Shown: positions 3,100 to 44,217, counted from the first letter of the stretch. The stretch: 64,000 nucleotides of DNA from Rhodobacteraceae bacterium IMCC1909 (GCA_030704425.1 JAPDHM010000002.1:496001-560000); one strand, 5' to 3'. Program-made: numbers and translations. Notes: generated by a model from the sequence alone, not told the origin.

Positions 3100-3250
3100 C
3101 GCCTCGCCCTCTGAGGGCTGTCGAGTGCCCGACAGAATGATTGATCAAATAGGTGGATGGAGTTCTATCAATTCTGCTGGCAGCTCTTATGGACACGGCT
3201 TTAATTTAGAGATCGTTACTAAATACGTGCTTAGATCATGTATATTAGGC
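3100..3250 (+). pseudogene. Tyrosine recombinase C-terminal relic with frameshift
   Basis: Around 3108 one frame reads LRAVECP, and from about 3137 the next frame reads MIDQIGGWSSINSAGSSYGHG. Together they match LRAVECPSDVIDQSGGW and the active-site Tyr segment of the intact recombinase at 4414-5577. Divergence is clear, so this is a relic of a related recombinase rather than a recent copy. It separates the small operon from the reductase gene. Confidence 0.65.
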
Positions 3251-4413: not shown

Positions 4414-5577
4414 TTAGGTTCTGATTAAAGAAATCATCCACTTGTTTAGAGTGTTATAGTCGTACCCATTCCCATAGCTGTTCCCCACGCCGTGCGTTAG
4501 CCAGCCACCGCTTTGATCAATCACATCACTGGGACATTCAACTGCCCTAAGCCTGTCTCGCATTGAATGCCTGAAGCTATGAATAGTATAGTCTGGTCCA
4601 CTCTTAACTTTCAGCCACTTATTCAAAGCAGCACTAGCTGAGTTTGCGTTAGTGCGTTGACCATCGTTGTAGTTGGGGAATGCAAACTCACTGCCATCAG
4701 GCTGTACTAATATGCGTTCTGCTGCCCACTTAGCTGATCCAACCAGCGGAATTAGTCTATCACTACTTGCAGTCTTAAGGGAGCGCCACGGATGAGGCCT
4801 GATTTTGACGCACAAGATGCCGTCTTGCTCAATGAAGTCTGATCTTAGCAGGCCAGCGCCTTCAGCTAATCGCATCCCTGTGTCAGCTATCAGGGCTATC
4901 AGCCATCGCTTCTCATCATCAGCCTTATAGCACTCTGCCTGAACCTGCTTGATGTCCTCAGGCTTTATGGGCAGCCGTTTCTTAACCCCAACATTGTGAT
5001 CAAAATAAACGTTTGAAAAAGGGTTGACGATAGCCAGCCCAAACTCACTTAGGGCTAAGTTTATAACGGCCCTTACAGTGCCAAATATCCTTGCTACAGA
5101 AGCCCCGTTCAGGCCTTTAGCAAACAGGTAATCACGGAACTTGGTAGCGTCAGACCGAACATAATCATGGAGATCTTTCATCCCACAACAATCGATCAGG
5201 TAGCCACAGGAACGCCTCACAGCAGCCTCAAAGGTCGGTGGCCGATCATTTCCTTTCAGCCTCAGATAAACCGCAACAGCAGCCTTCAACGAATGATATT
5301 CAATGGAAGCCTCAGCTGCTGGCTCCTGAGTAGCATCAGCTAGTAAATGCTTCCCTGGTAAATCATCAGAAGAAATCCGCAGGATGTGCCAATGCCTGTC
5401 TAACTTAGCAGCATCACTCATTGCCCTAACACGGGCATCCCTAATGGATTTAGTCCTCAAAGAATAAGCAATCCTGCCTGTACGATAATGCCGACGTAAA
5501 TCAGCAGGAACTCTACGGGAGAAATACCAGATTCCATCCTTTTGGAACGTGTAGCTATTAGATTTGGTTGCCAGCAT
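4414..5577 (-). CDS. Tyrosine recombinase / integrase (intact)
   Basis: A 387-residue site-specific recombinase. Residues 1-65 form a DUF6538-like N-terminal arm-binding segment, 95-180 the core-binding domain, 200-387 the catalytic domain. Catalytic residues visible: Arg236 (TGMRLAEG), Lys268 (SLKTASSDR), His333 and Arg336 (HSFRH), Trp359 in GGW where many family members have His, and Tyr368 (GNSYG). It would cut and rejoin DNA through a 3'-phosphotyrosine bond. The first 62 codons and the upstream region are repeated in inverted orientation at 461-804, and more distant relics of the family occur at 3.1, 18.0 and 19.0 kb. It is probably the enzyme that mobilised the 0.8-4.4 kb cargo (inference). 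Confidence 0.9.
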   Translation of the reverse strand: MLATKSNSYTFQKDGIWYFSRRVPADLRRHYRTGRIAYSLRTKSIRDARVRAMSDAAKLDRHWHILRISSDDLPGKHLLADATQEPAAEASIEYHSLKAAVAVYLRLKGNDRPPTFEAAVRRSCGYLIDCCGMKDLHDYVRSDATKFRDYLFAKGLNGASVARIFGTVRAVINLALSEFGLAIVNPFSNVYFDHNVGVKKRLPIKPEDIKQVQAECYKADDEKRWLIALIADTGMRLAEGAGLLRSDFIEQDGILCVKIRPHPWRSLKTASSDRLIPLVGSAKWAAERILVQPDGSEFAFPNYNDGQRTNANSASAALNKWLKVKSGPDYTIHSFRHSMRDRLRAVECPSDVIDQSGGWLTHGVGNSYGNGYDYNTLNKWMISLIRT

Positions 5578-5735
5578 GGTCTACGGCTCACTTACTGAGT
5601 CTAATTAGTGAGGTATTACAATGCTTTGAATTATTTATTGGCGCCCAGAAGAGAACGTCGAACTTTCCATAATTTGATTTAATTACAGTTACTTAATTTT
5701 TATTTTAAATTAAAAAGCGGTCCCAAAAGCGGTCC
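5392..5735 (-). repeat. Right arm of 344-bp inverted repeat
   Basis: This is the partner of 461-804. It covers the first codons of the intact recombinase and its upstream region up to two direct GCGGTCC motifs 11 bp apart (5717-5735). The doubled motif is a candidate binding site for the recombinase arm domain; a similar doubled motif is found twice near 17.65-17.83 kb. Confidence 0.85.
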
Positions 5736-5749
5736 TCTTAGATCGGAGG

Positions 5750-5882
5750 GAAGCCACCTCTATTCACGTACCAATATCAAGCTAACCCGTGCCGCTGCTC
5801 TCGCTGAGTGGCTCAATTATTGAGCGCATAGATTTAGGCTGTGCTAGAAATCTGACGCGTGTTCTCATTAGTTTGGCAGTTC
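5750..5882 (+). mobile_element. IS6-family-like 3'-end relic (copy A)
   Basis: One frame reads a decayed IKLTRAAALAEW, matching the C terminus of alphaproteobacterial IS6-family transposases (NFKLNRAAALAEWRQL), followed by about 60 bp of terminal sequence ending near TTTGGCAG. Five other copies in this window share the same order of motifs. It lies between the recombinase arm and the end of quiC. Only the last 130 bp of the element remain. Confidence 0.6.
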
Positions 5883-5886
5883 CTGC

Positions 5887-7773
5887 CTAAATCTTAGGCA
5901 TACCTTTTTGCCGCATCAGGCGCTTTTGCGCAGCGATACGGAATGGAGCATTCGGCCCCCCATACCCCCCATATCCGTCTGTTCTTTGTATAATCTCAAA
6001 GAACATGCCACCTGCGAAAGGCCGCGAGTAGAGTTGGAAAAATTTCCCCTGCGCGTCTTCATCATAGAGGATGTTACTCATGCGGAGTTGTGCCAACCTG
6101 TCTGAGCTGATGTCAAACCGTGCAGCAAGATCTGCGTAGTAGTTGGCCGGAATTGGCAATGACGAGAAACCATTTTTATCCAAACTCTTGGCCGTTGAGA
6201 AAATATCATCCGTCGCGAAGGCAATGTGCTGAACAGAGGCATGGAAACTTTCTGTAAGAAAGCTACCCGCCATGGTCTTATGAGTTTCGGCCCCGTTCAG
6301 TGTAACGCGTAAGCGTCCGTCCGGTGTTTCAAGAGCTTGTGATCGGACCAGACCATCTGGATCGACAACGTCAACCATCGCTGATTTGCCCATATCGAAT
6401 AGGGTCGTGTAGAACAGTGACCAGCTGAGCATATCTTCGTAACTCATGGTCTGCCCGATATGATCTATGCAGGTGAGACCCGTTCCAAGGTTCTTTTCGT
6501 CTATGGAGGTAAACTCAACGTCCCAGACATCTGAAAGGCCACTCTTCTCATCGATGAAATGCAAAATGCTACCGCTTTGTCCGTGGATCGCGGGAATGTT
6601 CAATTGTCCGGGATCAATTGGCTGTTTGAAGGGGTTGGCACCCAGCAATTTGGCGCGCTCGATTGCCGCTTTTGCATCGTCCACATCGATCCCAATATCG
6701 CACACACTGGTTCCGTGCACAGCAAATGCGCTACTAGCATAACCCTTAGTTTCACGGTTCACCAAGATGCGGATATCCCCCTGTGTCCAAAGGGTTAGAT
6801 TCATGCTAAAATGGTTAGCGGAATGGTTGAAGCCGAGACTGCAGAGCAAGACGTCTAGCGCATCTGCTTCCTCTGCCTTACTGGCGAATTCGATGAAGGA
6901 AGTGCCCCGTGCCTTGACCCGGTCTGGCGTGTCCGGCACGTCGAGTGCAAGCGTGGGTTCGACCCGATTGACATCATCCATCAGCGCCACCAGCGACCGA
7001 TAGCCATCCTTGGCGATACTCTTGGGGCGACCGCCTCTAAACTGATCATTAAATATCTCAAGTGAGATCGGCCCAGAGTACCCCGTAGCCATTACAGCGC
7101 GCGTGAATTTAATCATATCTAGGTCGCCTTCCCCCGGCATATTACGAAAGTGACGCGACCAGTACAGTAGGTCCATTTCAATAGCTGGCGCATCGGCAAA
7201 GTGGACGAAAAAGATTTTATCGCCGGGAATGCGGCGGATGGTGTCCGGATCAATCTTGCGAGCCAAAGTATGAAAACTATCTAAGATAAGACCAACATTT
7301 TTATGATCGGCCCTCCGCACTATTTCCCAGGCGTCGCGGTGATCGTTCACATAACGGCCCCAGGCCAACGCTTCATAGCCGACGCGTAGACCCCGCTTTG
7401 CTGCGCGTTCGCCAAGTTCGTAGAAATCAGCAGCGGCTCTGTCGATTCCGCCAAGCGCCTCTGGGTGGCACGAAGAACAAATCAGTATGAGATCAGTACC
7501 TAATTCTTGCATAAGGTCGAACTTCTGTTCCGCACGATCTAAGGCTTTGGTACGCAGTTGTTTGGGCAGGCCTTCAAAATCACGAAACGGTTGAAATAGT
7601 GTAATTTCAAGACCCATTGCGCGGATCATCTCGCCGACTTCGCGGGGATCGCCATCATGGGCGATAAAGTCCTGCTCAAAAATTTCGATTCCGTCGAAAC
7701 CAGCTGTGGCGATGGCTTCGAGCTTTTCTGAAAAGTTGCCAGAGATGGATACGGTGGCAATAGAGGTTTTCAT
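5887..7773 (-). CDS. quiC: 3-dehydroshikimate dehydratase, QuiC-type two-domain protein
   Basis: A 628-residue fusion. Residues 1-270 are a sugar-phosphate isomerase-like TIM barrel (FDGIEIFEQDF, LILDSFHTLA, IFFVHFADAP, GPISLEIFNDQF), the dehydratase part that converts 3-dehydroshikimate to protocatechuate. Residues 290-628 are a 4-hydroxyphenylpyruvate dioxygenase-like VOC domain with the usual metal triad in place: His438 (IDHIG), His516 (VQHIAF) and Glu593 (FFEIIQR). This domain order and length are those of bacterial QuiC1 proteins. It acts in the cytoplasm on the quinate/shikimate route. The dehydrogenase gene at 7931-9016 lies upstream on the same strand. Protocatechuate ring-cleavage genes are not in the window. 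Confidence 0.85.
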   Translation of the reverse strand: MKTSIATVSISGNFSEKLEAIATAGFDGIEIFEQDFIAHDGDPREVGEMIRAMGLEITLFQPFRDFEGLPKQLRTKALDRAEQKFDLMQELGTDLILICSSCHPEALGGIDRAAADFYELGERAAKRGLRVGYEALAWGRYVNDHRDAWEIVRRADHKNVGLILDSFHTLARKIDPDTIRRIPGDKIFFVHFADAPAIEMDLLYWSRHFRNMPGEGDLDMIKFTRAVMATGYSGPISLEIFNDQFRGGRPKSIAKDGYRSLVALMDDVNRVEPTLALDVPDTPDRVKARGTSFIEFASKAEEADALDVLLCSLGFNHSANHFSMNLTLWTQGDIRILVNRETKGYASSAFAVHGTSVCDIGIDVDDAKAAIERAKLLGANPFKQPIDPGQLNIPAIHGQSGSILHFIDEKSGLSDVWDVEFTSIDEKNLGTGLTCIDHIGQTMSYEDMLSWSLFYTTLFDMGKSAMVDVVDPDGLVRSQALETPDGRLRVTLNGAETHKTMAGSFLTESFHASVQHIAFATDDIFSTAKSLDKNGFSSLPIPANYYADLAARFDISSDRLAQLRMSNILYDEDAQGKFFQLYSRPFAGGMFFEIIQRTDGYGGYGGPNAPFRIAAQKRLMRQKGMPKI

Positions 7774-7930
7774 GTCGGATCCTCTTAAATGGTCTGACCT
7801 AGGGCTGCATAATCAAATACGTTTCCTGTGAAGGTGTTCAACGAGTTGAGCCTCAATCTCAAAAATAGAAACTGTCAAATGCACTGTTGTTCGCCTTCAG
7901 GAAAGCATTGCACGATATCCACAACCGCGT

Positions 7931-9016
7931 TCATAATGACGCTGTGGCGTGTTTGGTCGGCTGTGCATCGTAGATGTTTGCGACGCGGACAGATTTGCCT
8001 GAACTTGCCGCGGTGGTAACTGCTTCGACAATTTCAAGGGACTTCAGCCCCTCTAAACCTGACACCAAAGGGGCTGCACGACCACTGATCACATCAGAGA
8101 AATGCCGCACCTGCACGGCCAAAGGATCTTCTATCGAACAGGTTAAAGTCGTGGCGGAAATCGGCGTCCACCAATCGGGCTTTGACGCGTGACGCCACAC
8201 CCGGAGATCGGGAAGTGACAGGCCGCCTTGCGATCCGCCAATCAGATAGCAGCTTTCATTTGTTGCCGGGTAAGCGGGGTTCTCACGCGCTGTTAGTTCC
8301 CAACTCCAGGGCGCGACAATGCTATCGGACACGGAAATCGAAGCTATGGCACCAGACGCGAATGACAAAATGGCAGTGGCGAGATCTTCGTTCTCAAAAC
8401 CTCGAATAGACGGAACTGCAATGGCGCGCACTTCGGTGACCTCACCGCAAAAGTGCCGCAGAAGATCGACATCGTGCACAAGATTTACAGATATCGGCCC
8501 CGCACCTTTTTGGGTGCGCCAGGGTGCAAGGTCAAAATAATGGTCGGGCTTGTAAAACCAGCATGTGGCCTGAACAGATCGCACGGATCCGATCATTCCA
8601 TCGTCAATTGCCTGTTTTGCTGAACGTACCATGCCATTGTAACGGCGATGATGCCCGACCAACAGAGGCACTCCTGCCGCAGCCGCGGCATCGGTCAGCA
8701 ATTTGGCTTCGCCGGCAGTTACAGCGATTGGTTTCTCGATAAGAACCGGGCATTCATTCGCGATGCAAGCCAGCCCCTGATCAACATGGAGAGGCGTAGG
8801 CGTCGCCAGTATAATCCCGTCTGAACCGCCGTTCGACAACAGCTCATCCAATGACGCAAATACGGGAACACCAAGAAGACGGGCCTCTTGTTGTCCACCT
8901 TCGCTTTGCTCGACGACGCCGGACAATTCCACGCCGGGCGTTCTGCACAGAATATTCGCATGGCGCTTCCCAATAAGGCCGAGGCCGACAACTGCAATTC
9001 GCGTGATATCCGACAA
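7931..9016 (-). CDS. Gfo/Idh/MocA-family NAD(P)-dependent dehydrogenase
   Basis: A 361-residue oxidoreductase with an N-terminal Rossmann fold (IAVVGLGLIGKRH), the EKPIAV signature with the conserved Lys, and a C-terminal alpha/beta domain. The start is a TTG at 9016, with AAAGGA 8 bp upstream. Family members oxidise cyclitols, sugars or similar polyols. Next to quiC it could oxidise a cyclic polyol acid such as a quinate or shikimate derivative towards dehydroshikimate (inference; classical quinate dehydrogenases belong to other families). The 157-bp gap to quiC has no terminator I could see, so cotranscription is plausible. Confidence 0.8.
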   Translation of the reverse strand: MSDITRIAVVGLGLIGKRHANILCRTPGVELSGVVEQSEGGQQEARLLGVPVFASLDELLSNGGSDGIILATPTPLHVDQGLACIANECPVLIEKPIAVTAGEAKLLTDAAAAAGVPLLVGHHRRYNGMVRSAKQAIDDGMIGSVRSVQATCWFYKPDHYFDLAPWRTQKGAGPISVNLVHDVDLLRHFCGEVTEVRAIAVPSIRGFENEDLATAILSFASGAIASISVSDSIVAPWSWELTARENPAYPATNESCYLIGGSQGGLSLPDLRVWRHASKPDWWTPISATTLTCSIEDPLAVQVRHFSDVISGRAAPLVSGLEGLKSLEIVEAVTTAASSGKSVRVANIYDAQPTKHATASL

Positions 9017-9127
9017 CGTTGGAATCCTTTCTGGTATCGGATGTACTTAGCCTAATTTTTTTGATAATATCAATATCATCAGACGTTTTTTATTTTAACC
9101 GATGTATTTTTGGTTTGCGGTGCCGCC

Positions 9128-9139
9128 TATACCGGTATA
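9128..9139. promoter_or_regulatory. Palindrome TATACCGGTATA, candidate GntR operator
   Basis: A perfect 12-bp palindrome lies between the divergent Gfo/Idh and GntR genes, 38 bp before the GntR start. FCD-type GntR regulators bind short palindromes, often in such divergent promoters. The link to this regulator is inferred from position only. Confidence 0.45.
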
Positions 9140-9176
9140 AAATGACAAGCGGAAATTAAGGTATCACACAAAGCCC

Positions 9177-9863
9177 ATGGCAAAATCGCGCAACATAGTC
9201 GGCTCCACAACTTATCAAAATATTAAACGTGACATTATATTTGGAAAACTGGCGCCTGCGTCCAAGCTGAAGCTGGAAGCGTTGCGAGAGCGTTATTCGG
9301 CCAGCATGTCCACTTTACGAGAGACTTTGAACCGTTTGGCAAGCGAGGGGTTTGTCGATGCTGAAGAGCAACGCGGGTTTTTCGTTTCGGCTGTGTCGTC
9401 GGAAGATCTTGTGGAAATCGCGAACTTGCGCGTTCTGCTCGAATGCCACGCTCTGCTTTTGTCGATTAAAAACGGGGACGCAGATTGGGAAGGTAATCTG
9501 GTGGCAGCGCATCACAAGCTGCACATCATGGAAAAGAAAATGCTGAATGGTGAATTGACCGCTGCGGAAGATTGGAAGCGCTACGACTGGGAATTCCACA
9601 AAGCACTGATCGCTGCCTGCGGGTCACAAAATCTTTTGTCACTTCATTCGGTGCTTTTTGATAAATATCTGCGATACCAGATGCTTGTACTGACCCATCG
9701 CGGAGAGAAAGCAGTTCATGAGCATAGCGAACTGCTGGATGCTGCCCTAAGGCGGGACGAAACCCGCGCCACAGATATCCTTCGACTGCATATTGAACGC
9801 GGGCTTAACCACTCGGCCGCTGTGTTCCAAAGTGCGGGTGCTGAATCTACCCAACCGGTTTGA
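9177..9863 (+). CDS. GntR-family regulator, FCD subfamily
   Basis: A 228-residue protein with an N-terminal winged helix (about residues 10-75, with the recognition part YSASMSTLRETLNRLASEGFV) and an all-helical FCD ligand domain (about 85-215). In the FCD domain the metal- or ligand-binding pattern is seen in YDWEFHKAL, then HSVLFDKY and HSELLDAAL. FCD regulators are usually repressors released by a pathway acid. It diverges from the Gfo/Idh-quiC pair and precedes the TRAP-sulfatase operon, so it probably controls both and senses the transported acid or an intermediate. The ribosome site is weak. Confidence 0.85.
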   Translation: MAKSRNIVGSTTYQNIKRDIIFGKLAPASKLKLEALRERYSASMSTLRETLNRLASEGFVDAEEQRGFFVSAVSSEDLVEIANLRVLLECHALLLSIKNGDADWEGNLVAAHHKLHIMEKKMLNGELTAAEDWKRYDWEFHKALIAACGSQNLLSLHSVLFDKYLRYQMLVLTHRGEKAVHEHSELLDAALRRDETRATDILRLHIERGLNHSAAVFQSAGAESTQPV

Positions 9864-9987
9864 GCGATGATCCCGACAAGATTTGACCTTCGGCAAATTC
9901 ATCTAGATTCCACAATTACCACCCGCAACCACTTTGCAATCATCGCATTGAATCTTATTGGATTCTGCAGCGCAGATAATAATAGTT

Positions 9988-10005
9988 GGTATTTTTAAAA
10001 ATATC
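9988..10005. promoter_or_regulatory. AT-rich near-palindrome upstream of the TRAP operon
   Basis: GGTATTTTTAAAAATATC is an 18-bp near-perfect palindrome (one mismatched pair) about 110 bp before the TRAP binding-protein gene. It could be an operator or promoter element. It differs from the palindrome at 9128, so a shared regulator is not shown. Confidence 0.3.
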
Positions 10006-10114
10006 TGGTACTTTTAATTCTATCATTTATGGAGAGGTGTATAGGCCAATTTAGCCTTGTTAAAATGGCTGCAACGTCAATTACCGCTCAAGAAAACAAG
10101 GGAGATACCAAATA

Positions 10115-11101
10115 ATGACGCCATCAATCATCAAAAATGTCGCTTCCGGCTTATGTGCCGCTGCCATGCTGGCCACACCCGGCATAGCGCAGGAGAAAGT
10201 TGAACTTATCTGGTCAAGCACGATGTCGGCCACGCACTATCGCGCAACGATGCTCGACACCGTCTTCGGCGCATGTCTGGGCGACGAGTTCGAATTCACG
10301 CCATACCATGGCGCAACATTGTTCAAGCAGGGCACCGAACTGACCGCGATGCAGCGCGGCAACCTCGATATGGCCCCGATTGCCATTCCTGACCTATATA
10401 ATCAGGTTCCGGAATCGAGCATTCTTTCAACTGCCTATTTGTATTCCGACTATGACCACATGCGCAGAGTTTGGGCTTCGGGTGTGCTTGAGGATCTCCT
10501 CGCCACAATTCAGGACAAGGCTGGTATCGTCGTTCTAGACAACAACTATATTGGCACGCGCCAAGTCAATCTGAAAGGCGACAAGGTTATCAAAACACCT
10601 GAAGACATGGCCGGCATCAAGCTCCGCATGCCTGGCGGCGAAGTCTGGCAGTTCATTGGCGAAGCTTTGGGTGCCAATCCGACGCCAGTTGCATTTACAG
10701 AGGTTTACACTGCTCTTCAAACCGGCGCAGTTGACGGTCAGGACAATCCCTATACCGGCACCCAGCGGATGAAATTCTACGAAGTGACGGATCAGATTGT
10801 TTTGACCAACCACCTGGTCGCTAACAACTTGTTTTCTGTCTCCCGTTCCAAGTGGGATTCATTGACTGAGGCGCAACAAACCAAACTGCGTTCCTGTGCT
10901 GTCGAGTATCGCAAGGCGTTCGAGGGACGCATTCTTGAAGATGAGCAGTCCTTGCGCGCTTTCTTCGAAGGCGAAGGTCTAAATGTATACGACCCGGATC
11001 GCGATGCATTCCGCAACCACGTTCTTGGCGTCTACATGGACTCCAAATACGCGTCAGACTGGCCTGAAGGCCTTATCGACGCGATCAACGCGGTCGAGTA
11101 G
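10115..11101 (+). CDS. TRAP transporter solute-binding protein (DctP family)
   Basis: A 328-residue periplasmic protein. The signal peptide is residues 1-25 (ATPGIAQE, cleavage after IAQ). The DctP fold shows in TPEDMAGIKLRMPGG, with an Arg that normally grips the carboxylate of the ligand, and in EVYTALQTGAVDGQDNP, the family signature around the hinge. It binds an organic acid and hands it to the QM permease encoded next. GGGAG precedes the ATG. Context with quiC suggests a cyclic acid ligand such as quinate, shikimate or a sulfated derivative. A strong hairpin follows the gene. Confidence 0.9.
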   Translation: MTPSIIKNVASGLCAAAMLATPGIAQEKVELIWSSTMSATHYRATMLDTVFGACLGDEFEFTPYHGATLFKQGTELTAMQRGNLDMAPIAIPDLYNQVPESSILSTAYLYSDYDHMRRVWASGVLEDLLATIQDKAGIVVLDNNYIGTRQVNLKGDKVIKTPEDMAGIKLRMPGGEVWQFIGEALGANPTPVAFTEVYTALQTGAVDGQDNPYTGTQRMKFYEVTDQIVLTNHLVANNLFSVSRSKWDSLTEAQQTKLRSCAVEYRKAFEGRILEDEQSLRAFFEGEGLNVYDPDRDAFRNHVLGVYMDSKYASDWPEGLIDAINAVE

Positions 11102-11114
11102 TATCGATTAGGAT

Positions 11115-11140
11115 GGGGCGGCTAATACGCCGCCCCTTTT
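11115..11140 (+). terminator. Hairpin with T-run between TRAP P and Q genes
   Basis: GGGGCGGC and GCCGCCCC form an 8-bp stem with a six-base loop (11115-11136), directly followed by TTTT. It looks like a rho-independent or partial terminator that lets the binding protein be made in excess over the membrane subunits. Confidence 0.8.
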
Positions 11141-11165
11141 CAATTCGGTTAGGGGCGAAACCACG

Positions 11166-11681
11166 ATGATAAAGGCGATTGAGAAGGGGCGGCAATTTGC
11201 GGAAGGCATTGCTGCGCTTATGCTTGGTTCAATGTTCGTCTGCTTCCTTACCCAGATTGGGTTCAGATATATTCTGGGTTGGCCGGTAGGCTGGACCATT
11301 GAGTACGTGTCCATGACGTGGCTTTGGGGCATCCTTTTTGGCTACGCCTTCGTTGTTCGCAACCCCGAAATCATTCGGTTGGACATTGTCTATACGGCGA
11401 TGCCGCGAAACATTCAGCGTGCAATGGACGTGATCGCCCAGACTTTTTGTGCCGCGGTTATGCTTTGGTCGCTTCCCCAAGCAATCGATTATATTAACTT
11501 TATGCAGATCGAAAGAACTGCCTATATGCGGGTCAATTTCGCTCTGCTTTTCTCGATATACGTGCCGTTCTCAATCGCGGTCAGCATTCGCTGCCTGATG
11601 TCGGCTTGGGATGCGCTGCGCGGCCACCCTGATGATCCGGCGGTTTTGGGCGAGACGAAAGAATGCGACTGCAATGTTTGA
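11166..11681 (+). CDS. TRAP transporter small membrane subunit (DctQ family)
   Basis: A 171-residue inner-membrane protein with four predicted helices (about 15-37, 48-68, 90-110, 128-150). The segment WPVGWTIEYVSMTWLWGILFG contains the typical W-x-E-x-x-S pattern of DctQ proteins around the second helix. It pairs with the large DctM subunit to form the sodium-driven permease. Its 3' end overlaps the DctM start by 8 bp, indicating coupled translation. Confidence 0.88.
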   Translation: MIKAIEKGRQFAEGIAALMLGSMFVCFLTQIGFRYILGWPVGWTIEYVSMTWLWGILFGYAFVVRNPEIIRLDIVYTAMPRNIQRAMDVIAQTFCAAVMLWSLPQAIDYINFMQIERTAYMRVNFALLFSIYVPFSIAVSIRCLMSAWDALRGHPDDPAVLGETKECDCNV

Positions 11682-12969
11682 GCCATTCACACTGTCAATT
11701 ATCCTGATGGTCGTTCTGACGGTCTTTGGGCTGTCGATCGGCATCGCGATGCTGATTGGAACCATCATGTACCTGGCCCTTGCAGGCTGGGATACCTCAA
11801 TCGCCACGGAAACCGTGCTGCAAGGACTGTTCAACACGTACACCCTTTTAGCCATCCCACTCTTCATCCTTGCTGCCGATATAATGAATGTTGGCTCTTT
11901 ATCGGATCGCCTGCTGCGGTTTGCCGAGGCGCTGGTCGGCCGGTTCCGGGGTGGGCTGGGGCATGTGAACGTGGTGTCCAGCCTTATCTTTTCTGGCATG
12001 TCCGGTTCTGCCGTCGCCGACGCCGTTGGCATGGGCAAAATCGTTATCAACATGATGACCAAGGACGGAAAATATACCAAATCCTACGCTGCCGCTATAA
12101 CTGCAGCGACGGCCACCGTCGGCCCGATCATTCCGCCATCACTACCGATGATTATGTACGCTCTTGTCTCGGACGCCTCGATCGGTTTTCTATTCGCCGC
12201 CGGCATCTTGCCAGGGCTGCTGATGGGCCTGATGATGGCGGGCACCAATGCCTATATTGCACACAAGCGGGATTTCCCGGTGGAAGAACCAACGCCATTG
12301 CGTGACATTCCCCGCCTAACCTGGGAGGCCTTTCCGGCTCTGATGCTGCCAGTTATTCTGCTAGGCGGTATCTATGGCGGTGTCATGACCCCGACCGAGG
12401 CCGCCGCAGTAGCGGCGTTTTACGCTTTGCTGATCTCAGTCTTGTTTTACAGGTCAGTCAGTTTCAAAGCATTCTTTGGTGCACTACGCAGCAGCTCGCG
12501 GTCAACCGCAGCAGTCGGAGTGCTGATTATGGGCGCGATGGCGTTCAACTATGTCATCACGCGCGAGAACATACCCGGCTCTCTCGCCGCGTTCATGGCA
12601 CAATTCGAACTGTCCCCAATCTGGTTCCTGATTGCACTCAACGCCCTGTTCCTGCTGTTGGGTGCCGTCCTTGAACCCGGCCCAATCTTATTGATCGTCG
12701 TGCCGATCTTCATTCCAACGGTTGATGCCATGGATATTGATCTGGTGCATTTCGGGGTGATCGTTGTCATCAACGCAATGATTGGGCTGGTCACGCCGCC
12801 GGTGGGGATGCTGTTATTCATCGTCACAAATGTCACCGGGGCAAAAGTTGGCCACATCATTCGTGATGTCCTACCGTTTCTGTTCATTCTGATCTGCGCG
12901 TTGCTGATCGTCACGATCTGGGAGGACTTCGTACTCTTCGTCCCGCGTCTGCTTGGTTACACCGGATGA
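11674..12969 (+). CDS. TRAP transporter large membrane subunit (DctM family)
   Basis: A 431-residue inner-membrane protein with about twelve hydrophobic segments. Hallmarks are the repeated pattern seen in AIPLFILAADIMNVG, MSGSAVADAVGMGKI, GPIIPPSLPMIMYAL and, in the second half, GGIYGGVMTPTEAAAV and GLVTPPVGMLLFIV. It forms the translocation path of the transporter. The start was set at 11674 (MFEPFTLSI) because the longer frame only adds a charged stretch lying inside the Q gene. The first sulfatase gene overlaps its stop by 4 bp, so transporter and sulfatases are one operon. Confidence 0.9.
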   Translation: MFEPFTLSIILMVVLTVFGLSIGIAMLIGTIMYLALAGWDTSIATETVLQGLFNTYTLLAIPLFILAADIMNVGSLSDRLLRFAEALVGRFRGGLGHVNVVSSLIFSGMSGSAVADAVGMGKIVINMMTKDGKYTKSYAAAITAATATVGPIIPPSLPMIMYALVSDASIGFLFAAGILPGLLMGLMMAGTNAYIAHKRDFPVEEPTPLRDIPRLTWEAFPALMLPVILLGGIYGGVMTPTEAAAVAAFYALLISVLFYRSVSFKAFFGALRSSSRSTAAVGVLIMGAMAFNYVITRENIPGSLAAFMAQFELSPIWFLIALNALFLLLGAVLEPGPILLIVVPIFIPTVDAMDIDLVHFGVIVVINAMIGLVTPPVGMLLFIVTNVTGAKVGHIIRDVLPFLFILICALLIVTIWEDFVLFVPRLLGYTG

Positions 12970-14414
12970 GAGTGAAAGAGCGGCCAAATGTTCTTTTGAT
13001 CTGCGCCGATCACTGGCCCGCTGAATTGCTGGGTGTTGCGGGCCACCCGATCATCAAGACACCTGGCCTGGACGAAATCGCTTTTACCGGGACCCGGTTC
13101 ACGAATTGCTATACTGAATGTCCAGTGTGCATTCCTGCCCGCCGCACTTTGATGACCGGCCAATCGCCGCGCAGCCATGGCGACAGAACGTTTTCTGAAA
13201 AGATGCCGATACCGGATGTCACGACGCTTCCCCAAGCGTTCCGCGATGCCGGGTATCAGGCAGACGCCGTGGGCAAGCTGCACGTTTACCCCCAGCGGGA
13301 TCGCATCGGTTTTGACAGCGTCCTTCTGGACGAAGAAGGCCGGACGCAATTCGGGATGGTTGATGACTATGACATGTTTCTTGGGGATCTTGGCCACACC
13401 GGGCGTCAATACGATCATGGGATGTCGACAAACCAATATGACTGGCGGCCCTGGCACCTTGATGAAGACCTGCATGTAACGAACTGGGCGACGCGCAACA
13501 TGGCGCGGACTATCAAACGGCGCGATCCGACCCGTCCAGCCTTTTGGTACCTTGGGTACCGCCACCCGCACCCCCCGCTCGTGCCTTTGCAGGCCTATGT
13601 GGATTTATACCGCGATATCGGGATCGACCCGCCATATTGCGGTGATTGGGTACACGCGAATGACAACGACCCGCCGTACGCCCTGGCTGCGATGCAAGGT
13701 CGGGTGCGGCTGCACTCTGATCCTGCCATTCTAGAGGCGCGGCGCGCTTTTTACGCGCTATGCACGCAGATCGACCATCAAATCCGCTGGCTGATTGGAA
13801 CGTTGCAACAGGAAGGTATTCTGGACAACACAATCATCGTATTCATGTCCGATCACGGGGACATGCTGGGCAACCACGGCACCGTGGCCAAGCGATTGTT
13901 CTATGAAAGCTCTGCAAATGTCCCGATGATCATTATGGGCACGAAGGAATCTCCGCAGTTATTCGAAAGTGGGACAGACGACCGCCTGATGGGGCTTGCC
14001 GATGTGATGCCCACATTGCTGAACATGTGCGGAATTGACGTCCCCGCGTCAGTCGACGGTACGTCGATGGCTTCCGGTGACACCAAGGACCATATATATG
14101 GCGAATGGGGCGAAGACGACACCGCGTGCCGAATGGTCCGAGATGAGCGGTTCAAACTGATTTACTATGCCGTTGGAAATCACTTTCAGCTCTTCGATTT
14201 GCAGGAAGATCCGCAAGAGCTAGTGAACCTTGGGGGCCAATCGCAGGTGGCCGATGTGCAGGCGCGCCTGACAGAAACCCTTCGCGGCGAACTTTATGGG
14301 TCAGACCTGGAATGGCTCGACGGGCGTGAGTTTATTGGGCGGCCGAACCAGCCTTATACGTGGCAAGCGCACCGACACCTGCATTTTCAAAGAGGCGAGG
14401 GCTGGCCGCGTTGA
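12966..14414 (+). CDS. Cytoplasmic type I sulfatase (482 aa)
   Basis: An alkaline-phosphatase-fold hydrolase with the formylglycine motif C-I-P-A-R at Cys55, the N-terminal metal segment NVLLICADHW, the conserved SDHGDMLGNHG block, and a conserved Lys-containing segment after it (TVAKRLFYE). It should remove sulfate from an organic ester after Cys55 is converted to formylglycine. There is no signal peptide, so it acts in the cytoplasm. The gene overlaps the TRAP M gene by 4 bp, which couples uptake to desulfation. A phosphonate or phosphodiester hydrolase of the same superfamily is an alternative, but the CxPxR motif favours sulfatase. Confidence 0.85.
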   Translation: MRVKERPNVLLICADHWPAELLGVAGHPIIKTPGLDEIAFTGTRFTNCYTECPVCIPARRTLMTGQSPRSHGDRTFSEKMPIPDVTTLPQAFRDAGYQADAVGKLHVYPQRDRIGFDSVLLDEEGRTQFGMVDDYDMFLGDLGHTGRQYDHGMSTNQYDWRPWHLDEDLHVTNWATRNMARTIKRRDPTRPAFWYLGYRHPHPPLVPLQAYVDLYRDIGIDPPYCGDWVHANDNDPPYALAAMQGRVRLHSDPAILEARRAFYALCTQIDHQIRWLIGTLQQEGILDNTIIVFMSDHGDMLGNHGTVAKRLFYESSANVPMIIMGTKESPQLFESGTDDRLMGLADVMPTLLNMCGIDVPASVDGTSMASGDTKDHIYGEWGEDDTACRMVRDERFKLIYYAVGNHFQLFDLQEDPQELVNLGGQSQVADVQARLTETLRGELYGSDLEWLDGREFIGRPNQPYTWQAHRHLHFQRGEGWPR

Positions 14415-14445
14415 AAGGCGTGTCGGCCCTAAAGGAGACATAATA

Positions 14446-15972
14446 ATGCGTACAATTTTTGTTCTGTTTGACAGCCTCAACCGATCGGCGCTTGGTTGCT
14501 ACGGCGGATCGATCGATACGCCCAACTTCAACCGCCTCGCCGCAAAAAGTGCAGTGTTCGACAACCACTATGTCGGGTCAATGCCCTGTATGCCCGCGCG
14601 TCGTGACATGCATACGGGGCGGTTGAATTTTCTGCACCGAAGCTGGGGCCCGCTAGAGCCTTTTGACGATAGTTTTGTTGCGAAACTTCGGGAAAACGGC
14701 ATCTACACGCACCTGACCAGCGACCATAATCATTATTTTGAGGACGGTGGCGCGACCTATCACAACCGATTTAACACCTATGATTTCATCCGTGGGCAGG
14801 AAAGCGATACCTGGGTCGCCATGGTGAAACCGCCGCTGCAACGGTTCCGCGAGCAGTACCACGAAAAGCAATTTGGCGGTGCACGTTCACCGATGCGTAT
14901 TCAGGGGATGATTAACGAAACACGGTTCAAGGCGGACAAGGATTTTCCGGTTCATAAATGCTTCGACGCGGCGTTGGAATTCCTTGATACGAATGGAGAA
15001 GAGGATAACTGGTTTCTGCAACTTGAATGCTTTGATCCACACGAACCCTTCGCAGCGCCAGGAAGCTTTCGGGAAGCGTTCCCGACCACGTATTCTGGCC
15101 CAATTTATACATGGCCACAGTATAGAAATTCATCCGAAGATTCCAAAACTGAGGTCGCGGAAATACGTGCCAACTATGGGGCATTGGTGGCGTTTTGTGA
15201 TCAGCAGCTTGGACGGCTTCTCGACCATCTTGATGACCATGACATGTGGCGTGACACGACAATTGTGCTGACAACCGATCACGGCTTTATGCTTGGCGAA
15301 CACGAGTGGTGGGGCAAATTAAGGATGCCGTTCTTCAACGAAATCGCGCACATTCCGCTTTTGATCCATGACCCTGTGATGCCAGACAGTTGGGGCCTGA
15401 GAATTGGTGCTTTGACCCAGACGACCGATTTAGCGCCGACCTTTCTGGACATCTTTGGAATTTCCAAAGACAAGCATATTTGTGGGTCGTCTTTTATGCC
15501 TTTGATCCGGGGAGAGACAGCCTCTATCAGAGAGCTTGCGATCTACGGCGTCTTTGGCGCGGCGGTAAATGCAACCGATGGTCGCCATACCTATTTCCTC
15601 TACCCCGATGAGATGGACGAAACACCGCTTTTTGAGTACACGCTCATGCCAATGCACTCTACCAGTCTATTTGCGATGCGCGAGCTGGAGGATGCAGAAC
15701 TGGTCCGTGGTTTCGACTTTACCAAAGGTGCGCCAGTACTGAAAGTTCCTGCCTTAAGCGATGCAAATCGCCCACCGATGCAGGGTGGGGGTTTCGCGGA
15801 TGTCAGAACGCGGCTTTATGATCTGTCAACTGACCCCAAACAGGAAAAACCATTTCGCGATAACAAAATTGAAGCGGGCATGAACGCGAGCATTGCAAAG
15901 GAGTTGATGCGCCACGAAGCACCAGCCGAAATCTATGATCGCTTTGGTCTGAATCAGGGCTCCGCGGCATGA
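14446..15972 (+). CDS. Sulfatase-family hydrolase (508 aa, paralogue 1)
   Basis: Formylglycine motif C-M-P-A-R at Cys48, N-terminal FVLFDSLNRSALGCYGG, and LTTDHGFMLGEHEWWGK as the distal metal and substrate block. No signal peptide. The ATG at 14446 follows AAAGGAGA and gives exactly the same length as the next gene, its paralogue; the longer open frame starting at 14296 lies within the previous sulfatase gene and was rejected. Expected to hydrolyse a sulfate ester in the cytoplasm. The two paralogues keep the same order of motifs but differ throughout, so the duplication is not recent and they may act on different positions of one substrate (inference). Confidence 0.85.
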   Translation: MRTIFVLFDSLNRSALGCYGGSIDTPNFNRLAAKSAVFDNHYVGSMPCMPARRDMHTGRLNFLHRSWGPLEPFDDSFVAKLRENGIYTHLTSDHNHYFEDGGATYHNRFNTYDFIRGQESDTWVAMVKPPLQRFREQYHEKQFGGARSPMRIQGMINETRFKADKDFPVHKCFDAALEFLDTNGEEDNWFLQLECFDPHEPFAAPGSFREAFPTTYSGPIYTWPQYRNSSEDSKTEVAEIRANYGALVAFCDQQLGRLLDHLDDHDMWRDTTIVLTTDHGFMLGEHEWWGKLRMPFFNEIAHIPLLIHDPVMPDSWGLRIGALTQTTDLAPTFLDIFGISKDKHICGSSFMPLIRGETASIRELAIYGVFGAAVNATDGRHTYFLYPDEMDETPLFEYTLMPMHSTSLFAMRELEDAELVRGFDFTKGAPVLKVPALSDANRPPMQGGGFADVRTRLYDLSTDPKQEKPFRDNKIEAGMNASIAKELMRHEAPAEIYDRFGLNQGSAA

Positions 15973-16033
15973 TCTTGCTAGCTTTCAATCCGCGCATGAT
16001 TTGTGCGCCACTTAAACCCAGAAGACAGCGTCC

Positions 16034-17560
16034 ATGAAAGTCGTCTTTGCCCTTTTTGATACGCTCAACCGGCGTTCGCTGGAATGCTATGGTGGAACCA
16101 GTGTAAAAACGCCGAATTTCAAACGGTTGTCCGACCGGTCTGTGACATTTGACAATCACTATGTCGGCAGTCTGCCCTGTATGCCCGCGCGACGCGAACT
16201 GATGACAGGGCGGTATAATTTTCTACACCGGTCTTGGGGCCCGTGCGAACCCTTTGATCATGCGTTTCCTGAAATACTGTTCCGCGAAAACGGCGTCTAT
16301 TCCCATCTAGTCACGGATCATTCGCATTATTGGAAAGACGGCGGCGCAACATATCATTCGCGCTATGACAGCTTTGAGTTCATCCGCGGTCAGGAAATGG
16401 ACCCTTGGAAAGGCTACGTCGACCCGCCTTTCGATGAGTGGCGACAAGAATACCATCCGATCCAGTTCGACGATACACCACGCAGTAAGCATCGCCGCAA
16501 TATGGTGAACCGGCACTTTATCCGAGACTATGAAGATTTCCCTGCGGTCCAGACCGTTGACGCGGGTCTGGATTTCATCGCGCTGAACAAGCAAGCCGAC
16601 AACTGGCTGTTGCAGATCGAAACATTCGATCCGCACGAACCCTTTGACGTGCCCGAAGCCTTTCGCGCTGGCTATCCCACCGATTACAGTGGCCCGGTGC
16701 TTGATTACCCGCCCTATGGTACCTTCGAAGGCGATCCGGGCGAGATTGCCGAATTGCGCGCCGCCTATGCCGCCACGCTGGCCCATTGCGACTTCCAACT
16801 TGGCCGCATTTTGGACGTCTTCGATGCCAACGATCTGTGGGAGGACACAGCCCTTATCGTCACCACTGACCATGGGTTTCTTTTGGGCGAACATGACCTT
16901 TGGGCGAAGAATATCATGCCCGTATACAACGAAGTCGCACATATTCCCCTGATCATGTTTCACCCAGACCATGCGGATTGTGGCGGTCAACGGCGCGAGG
17001 GGCTTACCCAAACCACCGACCTGATGCCCACGTTTCTTGAGCTGTTCGGCGTGGCACCACCGCCGGAGGTTCGGGGAATGTCGCTGATGTCACTCGTCGC
17101 AACCGACGCTCCCGGTCACGAGACGATCCTATACGGACAGCATGGCGCGGCAATCAACATCACTGACGGACGTTACACCTATTTCCGCTATCCAACGGAC
17201 ATATTCGACGGAAACCTCAACCAATACACGCTGATGCCGACGCATATCATATCGATGTTTTCGGTCGAAGAATTGCAGAATACCACATTGGCCGACCCCT
17301 TCGACTTCACCCAAGGCGTACCGGTCATGAAGGTTCCGGTGATCCCGGAAAGCCCGTTCTTCAAGCGTCATGGCCCGGGTGTGCTGATCGACTGTCACAC
17401 ACGACTCTTCGACCTTTCTGTAGACCCTAAACAAACCAGCCCTATCGATAATCCAGAGGTCGAAGAAAGGCTGTCGCGGAAGATGGCCGAGACCATGATG
17501 GCCAATGATGCGCCCAACGAACTCTATGACCGTTTCGGCCTAACGGCGTATCTGCAATAG
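16034..17560 (+). CDS. Sulfatase-family hydrolase (508 aa, paralogue 2)
   Basis: Formylglycine motif C-M-P-A-R at Cys49, N-terminal FALFDTLNRRSLECYGG, distal block TTDHGFLLGEHDLWAKN, and DPHEPFDVPEAF shared with the upstream paralogue. It is 508 residues long, as is its neighbour, lacks a signal peptide and follows it by 61 bp. It ends the operon GntR-TRAP-sulfatases. A formylglycine-generating enzyme is not encoded in the window and must be supplied elsewhere if these enzymes are active. After its stop the sequence turns into recombinase-upstream and IS6-like relics. Confidence 0.85.
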   Translation: MKVVFALFDTLNRRSLECYGGTSVKTPNFKRLSDRSVTFDNHYVGSLPCMPARRELMTGRYNFLHRSWGPCEPFDHAFPEILFRENGVYSHLVTDHSHYWKDGGATYHSRYDSFEFIRGQEMDPWKGYVDPPFDEWRQEYHPIQFDDTPRSKHRRNMVNRHFIRDYEDFPAVQTVDAGLDFIALNKQADNWLLQIETFDPHEPFDVPEAFRAGYPTDYSGPVLDYPPYGTFEGDPGEIAELRAAYAATLAHCDFQLGRILDVFDANDLWEDTALIVTTDHGFLLGEHDLWAKNIMPVYNEVAHIPLIMFHPDHADCGGQRREGLTQTTDLMPTFLELFGVAPPPEVRGMSLMSLVATDAPGHETILYGQHGAAINITDGRYTYFRYPTDIFDGNLNQYTLMPTHIISMFSVEELQNTTLADPFDFTQGVPVMKVPVIPESPFFKRHGPGVLIDCHTRLFDLSVDPKQTSPIDNPEVEERLSRKMAETMMANDAPNELYDRFGLTAYLQ

Positions 17561-17647: not shown

Positions 17648-17826
17648 CCGAAAACGGTCCCAAAAGTGGTCCTGTGGAAATCTATACTACTGTATTTTTC
17701 TGTTTTGTTCGCAATTTCAGGGAGATCTCGGTGCCCAGAAAAGGACGTCGAACTTTATATATTTTGATTTAATTACAGTTATTTATTTTAAGATTGAAAT
17801 TAAAAAGTGGTCCCGAAAGCGGTCCT
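17648..17826 (+). repeat. Relic of recombinase upstream region with doubled GGTCC motifs
   Basis: From about 17729 the sequence follows the upstream region of the recombinase (compare 5640-5735), including the AT-rich core and the doubled GGTCC motif (AGTGGTCCCGAAAGCGGTCC). A second doubled motif, ACGGTCCCAAAAGTGGTCC, lies at 17650-17668. The two doubled sites, 140-160 bp apart, may mark old recombination sites. Confidence 0.6.
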
Positions 17827-17839
17827 TCTGAGTAAGATC

Positions 17840-17972
17840 AGGCGACCTATTAAGCACATCAATTTCAAGCCAAACCGTACTGACACTCTCTCTGGGTGGC
17901 GTCGATTATTGAGCGCATAGATTTAGGCTGTGGCAGCAATCCGATGCGAATTCTCATTTGTCTGACAGCACC
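17840..17972 (+). mobile_element. IS6-family-like 3'-end relic (copy B)
   Basis: One frame reads INFKPNRTDTLSGWRRLLSA and a stop, a decayed version of the transposase C terminus, followed by the shared terminal stretch ending GTCTGACAGCACC. Same orientation as copy A. Copies A and B bracket the quiC-TRAP-sulfatase module. Confidence 0.65.
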
Positions 17973-18010: not shown

Positions 18011-18127
18011 CTGAGAGCTGTTGATTGTCCATGCGAAGTCATCGACCAAATCGGTGGGTGGCTCACGCAAGGTGTTGGTAGTAGCTACGGCACTGTTTAT
18101 CCTGACTCCATACTATGGAAATGGTAA
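18011..18127 (+). pseudogene. Tyrosine recombinase C-terminal relic
   Basis: The frame reads LRAVDCPCEVIDQIGGWLT then QGVGSSYG and stops shortly after. This equals residues 343-369 of the intact recombinase (LRAVECPSDVIDQSGGW and the Tyr segment). The catalytic core before it is gone. Its end overlaps the convergent methyltransferase gene by 15 bp, so the junction may have altered that gene's 3' end. Confidence 0.7.
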
Positions 18128-18984: not shown

Positions 18985-19060
18985 TAAACCCGTGCTCAGA
19001 GGATTTAGTCCTTAAAGAGTAAGCAATCCTGCCTATGCTATACTAAGGCGTACTTTGGTC
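18985..19060 (-). pseudogene. Tyrosine recombinase N-terminal relic
   Basis: The segment GGATTTAGTCCTTAAAGAGT and the following bases match the start of the recombinase gene in minus orientation (compare 5448-5500, codons for RIAYSLRTKSI). Only about 70 bp remain. It is followed immediately by an IS6-like relic. Confidence 0.55.
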
Positions 19061-19180
19061 ACGCCTCAGTTTCAAGCTAAACCGAGCTGCTACTCTCGCT
19101 AAGTGGCGCCAATTGTTGAGCGCACAGATTTAGTCTGCACTAGCAATTTGATGCATGCAATCGTTAGTCTGACAGCACCA
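19056..19180 (+). mobile_element. IS6-family-like 3'-end relic (copy C)
   Basis: Nucleotide match to the other copies: TTTCAAGCTAAACC, CTAAGTGGCGCCAATTGTTG, AGCGCACAGATTTAG, then CTAGCAAT and TTAGTCTGACAGCACC. The transposase frame is no longer intact. Same orientation as the other copies. It sits 40 bp before the end of the gamma-glutamyltransferase gene. Confidence 0.6.
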
Positions 19181-44075: not shown

Positions 44076-44217
44076 CTCGCCATCTCTACTCACACACCAA
44101 TTTTAAGCTGAACCGTGCCGCTGCTCTCGCCGAGTGGCGCCAACTATTGAGCGCATAGATTCAGGCTGCGCTAGCAATCTGCAATCTGATGTGAGTTCTC
44201 ATTCGTCTGACAGCACC
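44076..44217 (+). mobile_element. IS6-family-like 3'-end relic (copy F, best preserved)
   Basis: One frame reads LYSHTNFKLNRAAALAEWRQ then LLSA and a stop, the cleanest version of the transposase C terminus among the six copies, followed by the terminal stretch ending GTCTGACAGCACC. The rest of the element is missing. Copies E and F bracket the peptidase-dehydrogenase-amidase operon. Confidence 0.7.

Follow-up and report, generated by a model that had tools for sequence, protein, structure and literature searches.

A QuiC-type dehydratase, a TRAP transporter and three cytoplasmic sulfatase-family hydrolases in one locus of a marine Rhodobacteraceae bacterium: a candidate route for a sulfated quinate- or shikimate-like acid

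We analysed a window of 64,000 nucleotides from Rhodobacteraceae bacterium IMCC1909 (GCA_030704425.1 JAPDHM010000002.1:496001-560000), a Planktomarina/Roseobacter-type marine bacterium, and focused on a block at positions 5887-17560 that joins a QuiC-type dehydratase, a Gfo/Idh/MocA dehydrogenase (Gfo), a GntR/FCD regulator, a tripartite ATP-independent periplasmic (TRAP) transporter and three sulfatase-family hydrolases (S1, S2 and S3). The parts are known, and their combination is new. An initial annotation had proposed that the block imports, desulfates and dehydrates a sulfated cyclic acid. All the genes it had named were recovered in place by open reading frame (ORF) calls, Pfam and NCBIfam, and the block reads as follows, with identities and motifs taken directly from the sequence:

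5887..7773, minus strand: QuiC-type two-domain protein, likely a 3-dehydroshikimate dehydratase (triosephosphate isomerase (TIM) barrel plus 4-hydroxyphenylpyruvate dioxygenase (HPPD)-like domain; PF01261 + PF14696 + PF00903)
7931..9016, minus strand: Gfo/Idh/MocA dehydrogenase, probably of quinate/shikimate type (PF01408/PF22725/PF02894)
9177..9863, plus strand: GntR/FCD regulator, divergent from Gfo (PF00392 + PF07729)
10115..11101, plus strand: TRAP solute-binding protein DctP with signal peptide (PF03480)
11115..11136, plus strand: strong GC-rich stem-loop GGGGCGGCTAATACGCCGCCCC followed by TTTT, in the dctP-dctQ gap
11166..11681, plus strand: TRAP small permease DctQ (PF04290)
11674..12969, plus strand: TRAP large permease DctM, start predicted (PF06808)
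12966..14414, plus strand: sulfatase S1, CIPAR, canonical GK.H, cytoplasmic (PF00884, PF16347)
14446..15972, plus strand: sulfatase-family hydrolase S2, CMPAR, cytoplasmic, start from alignment (PF00884)
16034..17560, plus strand: sulfatase-family hydrolase S3, CMPAR, cytoplasmic, S2 paralog at 50% (PF00884)

The transporter had been described by its DctP and DctM subunits, both of which stand; DctQ had been left out, and with it the TRAP set is complete by PF03480, PF04290 and PF06808. There is no second transporter in the block. Two starts were corrected, that of DctM (probably 11674) and that of S2 (14446, with AGGAG upstream and support from the alignment); the longest S2 ORF begins at 14296 and would overlap S1. 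The reported 4-bp overlap between DctM and S1 is exact (S1 start 12966, DctM end 12969) and couples S1 translationally to the permease, which supports a shared role, and the pairing is seen again in genome G202, where a 78% S1 relative stands directly behind the remains of a DctM (81-87%) that an insertion sequence has interrupted. The stem-loop and T run at 11115-11136 possibly restrict permease expression relative to DctP.

All three hydrolases match PF00884 above the Pfam cut-off (E 1e-32 to 4e-42) and carry the formylglycine motif CxPxR, as had been claimed, in the form CIPAR in S1 and CMPAR in S2 and S3. The claim that they lack signal peptides is likewise borne out, because the proteins start straight at the catalytic core, the first metal-ligand Asp being residue 9 in S2 and about residue 15 in S1. 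S1 also has the sulfate-binding motif GK.H, as GKLH. The genome contains one match to the formylglycine-generating enzyme (FGE; PF03781, E 1.5e-74) and 22 stretches matching PF00884. Relatives of S2 were absent from 19 of 19 same-genus genomes (E 1e-50); across the family they occur in 19 of 395 genomes (E 1e-100) and those of S1 in 12 of 395 (E 1e-110), the home genome included in both counts. In every one of the 21 S2-family neighbourhoods that were read, a tripartite tricarboxylate (TTT), ATP-binding cassette (ABC) or TRAP transporter lies no more than 6 kb away, and such company of small-solute transporters fits import followed by cytoplasmic desulfation. In Salipiger abyssi, S2-family members have further sulfatases and an FGE gene as neighbours. 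Paracoccus seriniphilus (L167:8992-17137) has a 65% S1 relative beside a TTT transporter and L-threonate degradation genes, a setting that suggests a sulfated C4 sugar acid as the substrate there.

The QuiC-type protein has its domains at residues 18-261 (PF01261), 289-421 (PF14696) and 436-550 (PF00903) and is 39% identical over its full length to Pseudomonas putida QuiC1 (5HMQ, E 1e-173). We use the label "QuiC-type" because its score against the NCBIfam equivalog NF042435, 659 bits, is below the curated cut-off of 1200 bits. Ten active-site residues have been described for QsuB and QuiC1 (R64, L97, E134, L136, D165, H168, Q191, S206, R210 and E239; PMC7442255). Nine of them are kept here, the sole change being the metal-site Gln191 to His, a substitution also present in genus relatives and in loci L020 and L037, both of which adjoin AroE and the former also AroQ and PcaHG. 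Because nine residues are retained and Q191H also occurs in the AroE-linked L020 and L037, the protein is likely a dehydroshikimate dehydratase. The earlier assignment of QuiC to protocatechuate formation thus holds as to orthology, nine of the ten residues and an intact downstream pathway, with Q191H as the departure from it.

QuiC orthologs (67-83%) are widespread in Rhodobacteraceae, where their operon partners are AroE-like, AroQ, pca, TTT or TRAP genes; in the genus relatives G019 and G014, QuiC stands in other surroundings, without TRAP, Gfo or sulfatases. Several of the nearest Gfo relatives (66-70%) are accompanied instead by a QuiC paralog. These paralogs, which lie in GntR/Gfo-TRAP cassettes (L142:4384-6270, L143:13486-15372, L151:6627-8519 and L134:16514-18262), have lost nearly all dehydratase residues and kept the C-terminal HPPD-like His/His/Glu metal ligands. 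This leaves room for different chemistry in those cassettes, and the retained ligands hint at a separate function for the HPPD-like domain.

Protocatechuate would be a usable product in this genome, since a 4,5-cleavage (lig) operon at about 670-678 kb of C1 appears intact: LigA, LigB, LigK and oxalomesaconate tautomerase score above NCBIfam cut-offs, and LigC-, LigI- and LigJ-like genes adjoin them. The beta-ketoadipate route was considered and set aside for the home genome. Its 3,4-cleavage (pca) cluster (L173:8900-11800, that is, G000 C1 at about 222-225 kb) is decayed, with pcaH missing, pcaC and pcaG fused and pcaB frameshifted.

Orthologs of Gfo (42-70%) were found in 69 of the 395 sampled family genomes, and 53 neighbourhoods were read. 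AroQ, AroE or QuiC-type genes lie within 10 kb in 41 of the 53, and 38 have a DctP; AroQ directly adjoins Gfo in 10. This company points to a ring dehydrogenase feeding the dehydroquinate/dehydroshikimate pool, and from the ten cases of direct AroQ adjacency we consider Gfo a probable quinate/shikimate-type dehydrogenase. The regulator has 65-76% relatives in the same GntR/Gfo cassettes. A perfect palindrome, TATACCGGTATA, lies at 9128-9139 in the gap between Gfo and GntR and is the single exact copy in the 64 kb. In genome G073 the cassette (L134:9009-15684) extends through genes for a citrate-synthase-like lyase, a TIM-barrel protein and an aldehyde dehydrogenase, followed by a thiamine pyrophosphate enzyme and an HpaI-type aldolase, and much of this set recurs in L142, L143 and L146.

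The transporter has relatives of a similar kind. In the DctP tree, the binding protein falls in a ten-member clade (99/100, inner node 87/92) with those of AroE-TRAP-QuiC loci, apart from the DctP clade of the Gfo cassettes. The clade takes in the locus on plasmid CP031587.1, which has the order AroE-siaP-siaP-DctQ-DctM-QuiC, and on a Sagittula plasmid a DctQM relative lies near AroQ, where an alpha/beta hydrolase and also a lactonase are encoded. Structure prediction was run with the plasmid rows left out; the best solved relative of DctP is 4pf6 (42% across an alignment of 299 residues, Z 31.4), the ligand of which is probably 3-deoxy-D-manno-octulosonic acid (KDO). The DctP clade and the cassette company of Gfo and GntR argue for a quinate/shikimate-type route as the backbone of the block, and the AroE, AroQ and QuiC genes beside relatives of the transporter and dehydrogenase point to a quinate- or shikimate-like acid as cargo.

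Given these associations, we tentatively favour, at somewhat less than even confidence, a composite catabolic island through which one substrate, an O-sulfated alicyclic hydroxy acid of the quinate/shikimate class, would pass from module to module. We infer each substrate, the order of the steps and the joint regulation. DctP would bind the anion and DctQM would bring it in intact, after which S1, S2 and S3, activated by the single FGE, would remove at least one sulfate ester from it in the cytoplasm. Gfo may then turn the freed ring alcohol into 3-dehydroquinate or 3-dehydroshikimate, with the biosynthetic 3-dehydroquinate dehydratase bridging from the former to the latter if needed; QuiC would dehydrate 3-dehydroshikimate to protocatechuate, and LigAB with the remainder of the lig operon elsewhere in the genome would carry this to central metabolites. 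The GntR/FCD protein probably governs both divergent arms. We give only about a third of our belief to the possibility that the block is specifically devoted to using a sulfated shikimate/quinate-class acid, a kind of organosulfate on which bacteria are not known to grow. In the literature searched we found no described pathway joining these parts, in agreement with the initial annotation, and did not meet the combination of quinate, sulfatase and TRAP. Much of its proposal stands, namely TRAP import, cytoplasmic sulfatases, a QuiC ortholog, a quinate/shikimate-like acid and lig-based use of protocatechuate; what is not supported is the notion of a conserved system.

The proposal had been tied beforehand to the conservation of sulfatases with quiC across genomes, and the link proved nearly unique: QuiC, Gfo and TRAP cassettes usually come without sulfatases. 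For the 80 nearest QuiC genes, flanks of up to 10 kb per side contained just two sulfatase homologues, both distant (27-29% to S1) and one of them choline-sulfatase-like. Candidate QuiC-sulfatase neighbours were rejected, L045 as choline-sulfatase-like and L049 and L185 as unrelated. The closest S2 relative (77%) is in G073, 6.7 kb from a GntR/Gfo-TRAP cassette, and is preceded by a second TRAP system; G073 alone repeats the S2 link, beside a QuiC paralog that has lost its dehydratase site. We estimate that S2 and Gfo would be linked by chance in roughly 0.5% of genomes, taking a target of 20 kb and a genome of about 4 Mb.

Several observations weigh against a single sulfated substrate. The usual QuiC or Gfo cassettes have no sulfatase, and among the five other genomes in which a relative of S2 and an ortholog of Gfo occur together, the two genes are linked only in G073. 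S2 and S3 lack the GK.H Lys and have D-H-x-H instead, and the S2 model fits sulfatases and phosphonate monoester hydrolases (PMHs) about equally, so that "sulfatase" is the firmer term for S1, S2 and S3 being best called sulfatase-superfamily hydrolases. ORF calls and Pfam gave no AroQ or AroE within 5887-17560; the home genome has a single AroE, outside the locus, and no genome-wide search for AroQ was made. A conserved operator was not found, TATACCGGTATA being absent, with up to two mismatches allowed, from 33 related intergenic regions. DctP sits on a long branch (0.84), and sulfated quinate or shikimate was met in the searched literature only in a single plant metabolomics study.

The principal alternative is accretion, in which TRAP, Gfo and QuiC would serve plain quinate or shikimate, and S1-S3 would serve some other import (for example a sulfated aldonate) or sulfate scavenging. 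We regard this as somewhat unlikely. In its favour, relatives of the TRAP, Gfo and QuiC modules mostly lack a sulfatase, the nearest relatives differ among the parts, S1 relatives accompany TTT transporters and threonate genes, the 22 PF00884 stretches imply many further such genes in the genome, and integrase remnants and repeats lie on the flanks. It sits poorly with the translational coupling of DctM and S1 and its repetition in G202, with the G073 S2 ortholog near the same cassette and with the lack of another transporter in the block. An improbable variant places the relevant QuiC activity in the HPPD-like C-terminal domain, with another keto acid as substrate and a product other than protocatechuate, as the paralogs of the closest Gfo/GntR cassettes, stripped of nearly all dehydratase residues with the C-terminal His/His/Glu intact, could suggest. 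The protein at this locus, in contrast, keeps nine of ten dehydratase residues and is orthologous to the QuiC of shikimate/pca operons, and QsuB works through its N-terminal domain, its C-terminal domain showing no activity on protocatechuate (PMC7442255).

It is more improbable again that S2 and S3 hydrolyse phosphonate or phosphate esters, as other members of their superfamily do, and that the imported acid is not, or not only, sulfated. Their DH.H in place of GK.H, the PMH structures 2w8s and 4uph with Z-scores that differ from that of the best sulfatase by no more than about 1.3, and a best, sub-threshold NCBIfam match to PehA are consistent with such an activity; the canonical motif of S1 and the company of other sulfatases and an FGE gene around the S. 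abyssi family members argue for sulfatases. Finally, phenolic sulfates had been listed initially among the candidate substrates, and a sulfated phenolic acid of the zosteric-acid type could in principle be desulfated and fed to protocatechuate, the cleavage of which is present. We consider this very improbable: phenolic sulfates fit poorly because an aromatic ring needs no dehydrogenase and dehydroshikimate dehydratase, so that QuiC and Gfo would be left without a role, the block has no hydroxylase, coenzyme A ligase or demethylase, and the transporter relatives accompany AroE/AroQ.

Since the nearest relatives of its parts differ, the block looks, from these comparisons, like an assembly of modules with separate histories. 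The features at its borders are:

4414..5577, minus strand: tyrosine-recombinase integrase, left neighbour of the cluster (PF20172 (DUF6538), PF00589 (Phage_integrase))
5640..5736, plus strand: 97-nt att-like direct repeat upstream of the integrase, left copy, 85% identical to the right copy
17730..17826, plus strand: 97-nt direct repeat, right copy

A third copy of the 97-nt repeat lies at 461-556 on the minus strand, and pieces of this integrase occur at 619-804, 3111-3232, 18011-18124 and 19001-19042; together, the integrase, its fragments and the att-like repeats mark a possible integration hot spot. An interspersed repeat of about 125 nt with the core TTATTGAGCGCATAGATTTAGGCTGTG occurs in the window at 5753-5880, 17842-17969, 19059-19175 and 44079-44213. 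It has about 40 matches in the home genome, 42 in G019 and 32 in G018, no Rfam match within the window and no unusual folding energy. We had considered 245-bp repeats as the island bounds and rejected them, their part of about 125 nt being this dispersed repeat with its roughly 40 listed genomic matches; the 97-nt integrase-associated part is a candidate boundary.

If a sulfated quinate/shikimate-class acid is indeed the substrate, such organosulfates would circulate in the ocean and supply carbon and sulfur to abundant Roseobacters. The locus would identify a kind of marine organosulfate whose use by bacteria we did not meet in the searched literature, connect the turnover of sulfate esters with aromatic catabolism, and offer a defined binding protein and a set of enzymes for seeking the compounds in seawater. 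Should the sulfatases prove unrelated to the other modules, the locus would still be a clear catabolic island built from modules of separate histories.

Among known systems, the block resembles operons for quinate/shikimate catabolism (qsuABCD of Corynebacterium glutamicum; QuiC1 of P. putida) in its two-domain QuiC-type protein, dedicated transporter, probable ring dehydrogenase and predicted protocatechuate product. Unlike them, it has a TRAP transporter rather than a permease, a Gfo-family rather than an AroE/QsuD-type dehydrogenase, three sulfatases, Q191H and no AroQ. Rhodobacteraceae GntR/Gfo-DctPQM-QuiC/AroE cassettes (L020, L033, L112, L142-L151 and plasmid pMaD4) share the divergent GntR and Gfo (45-76%) with TRAP and QuiC-type neighbours, but usually have no sulfatase; many of them carry a QuiC paralog without dehydratase residues, and their DctP is of another clade (about 40-47%). 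The AroE-TRAP-QuiC loci (L024, L041, L049, L051, L052, L059, L082 and CP031587.1) provide the nearest DctP and DctM and an orthologous QuiC, and differ in having AroE, no Gfo and no sulfatase of the S1-S3 type. Loci pairing a transporter with a cytoplasmic sulfatase (TTT or ABC with S2-type enzymes, and the P. seriniphilus S1 locus) likewise combine small-solute import with a signal-less CxPxR hydrolase, although their transporter is TTT or ABC and their downstream catabolism unrelated. The choline sulfatase BetC is, similarly, a cytoplasmic type I sulfatase that works after import, but S1 scores 209 bits against a choline-sulfatase cut-off of 433 and its gene context is not that of choline.

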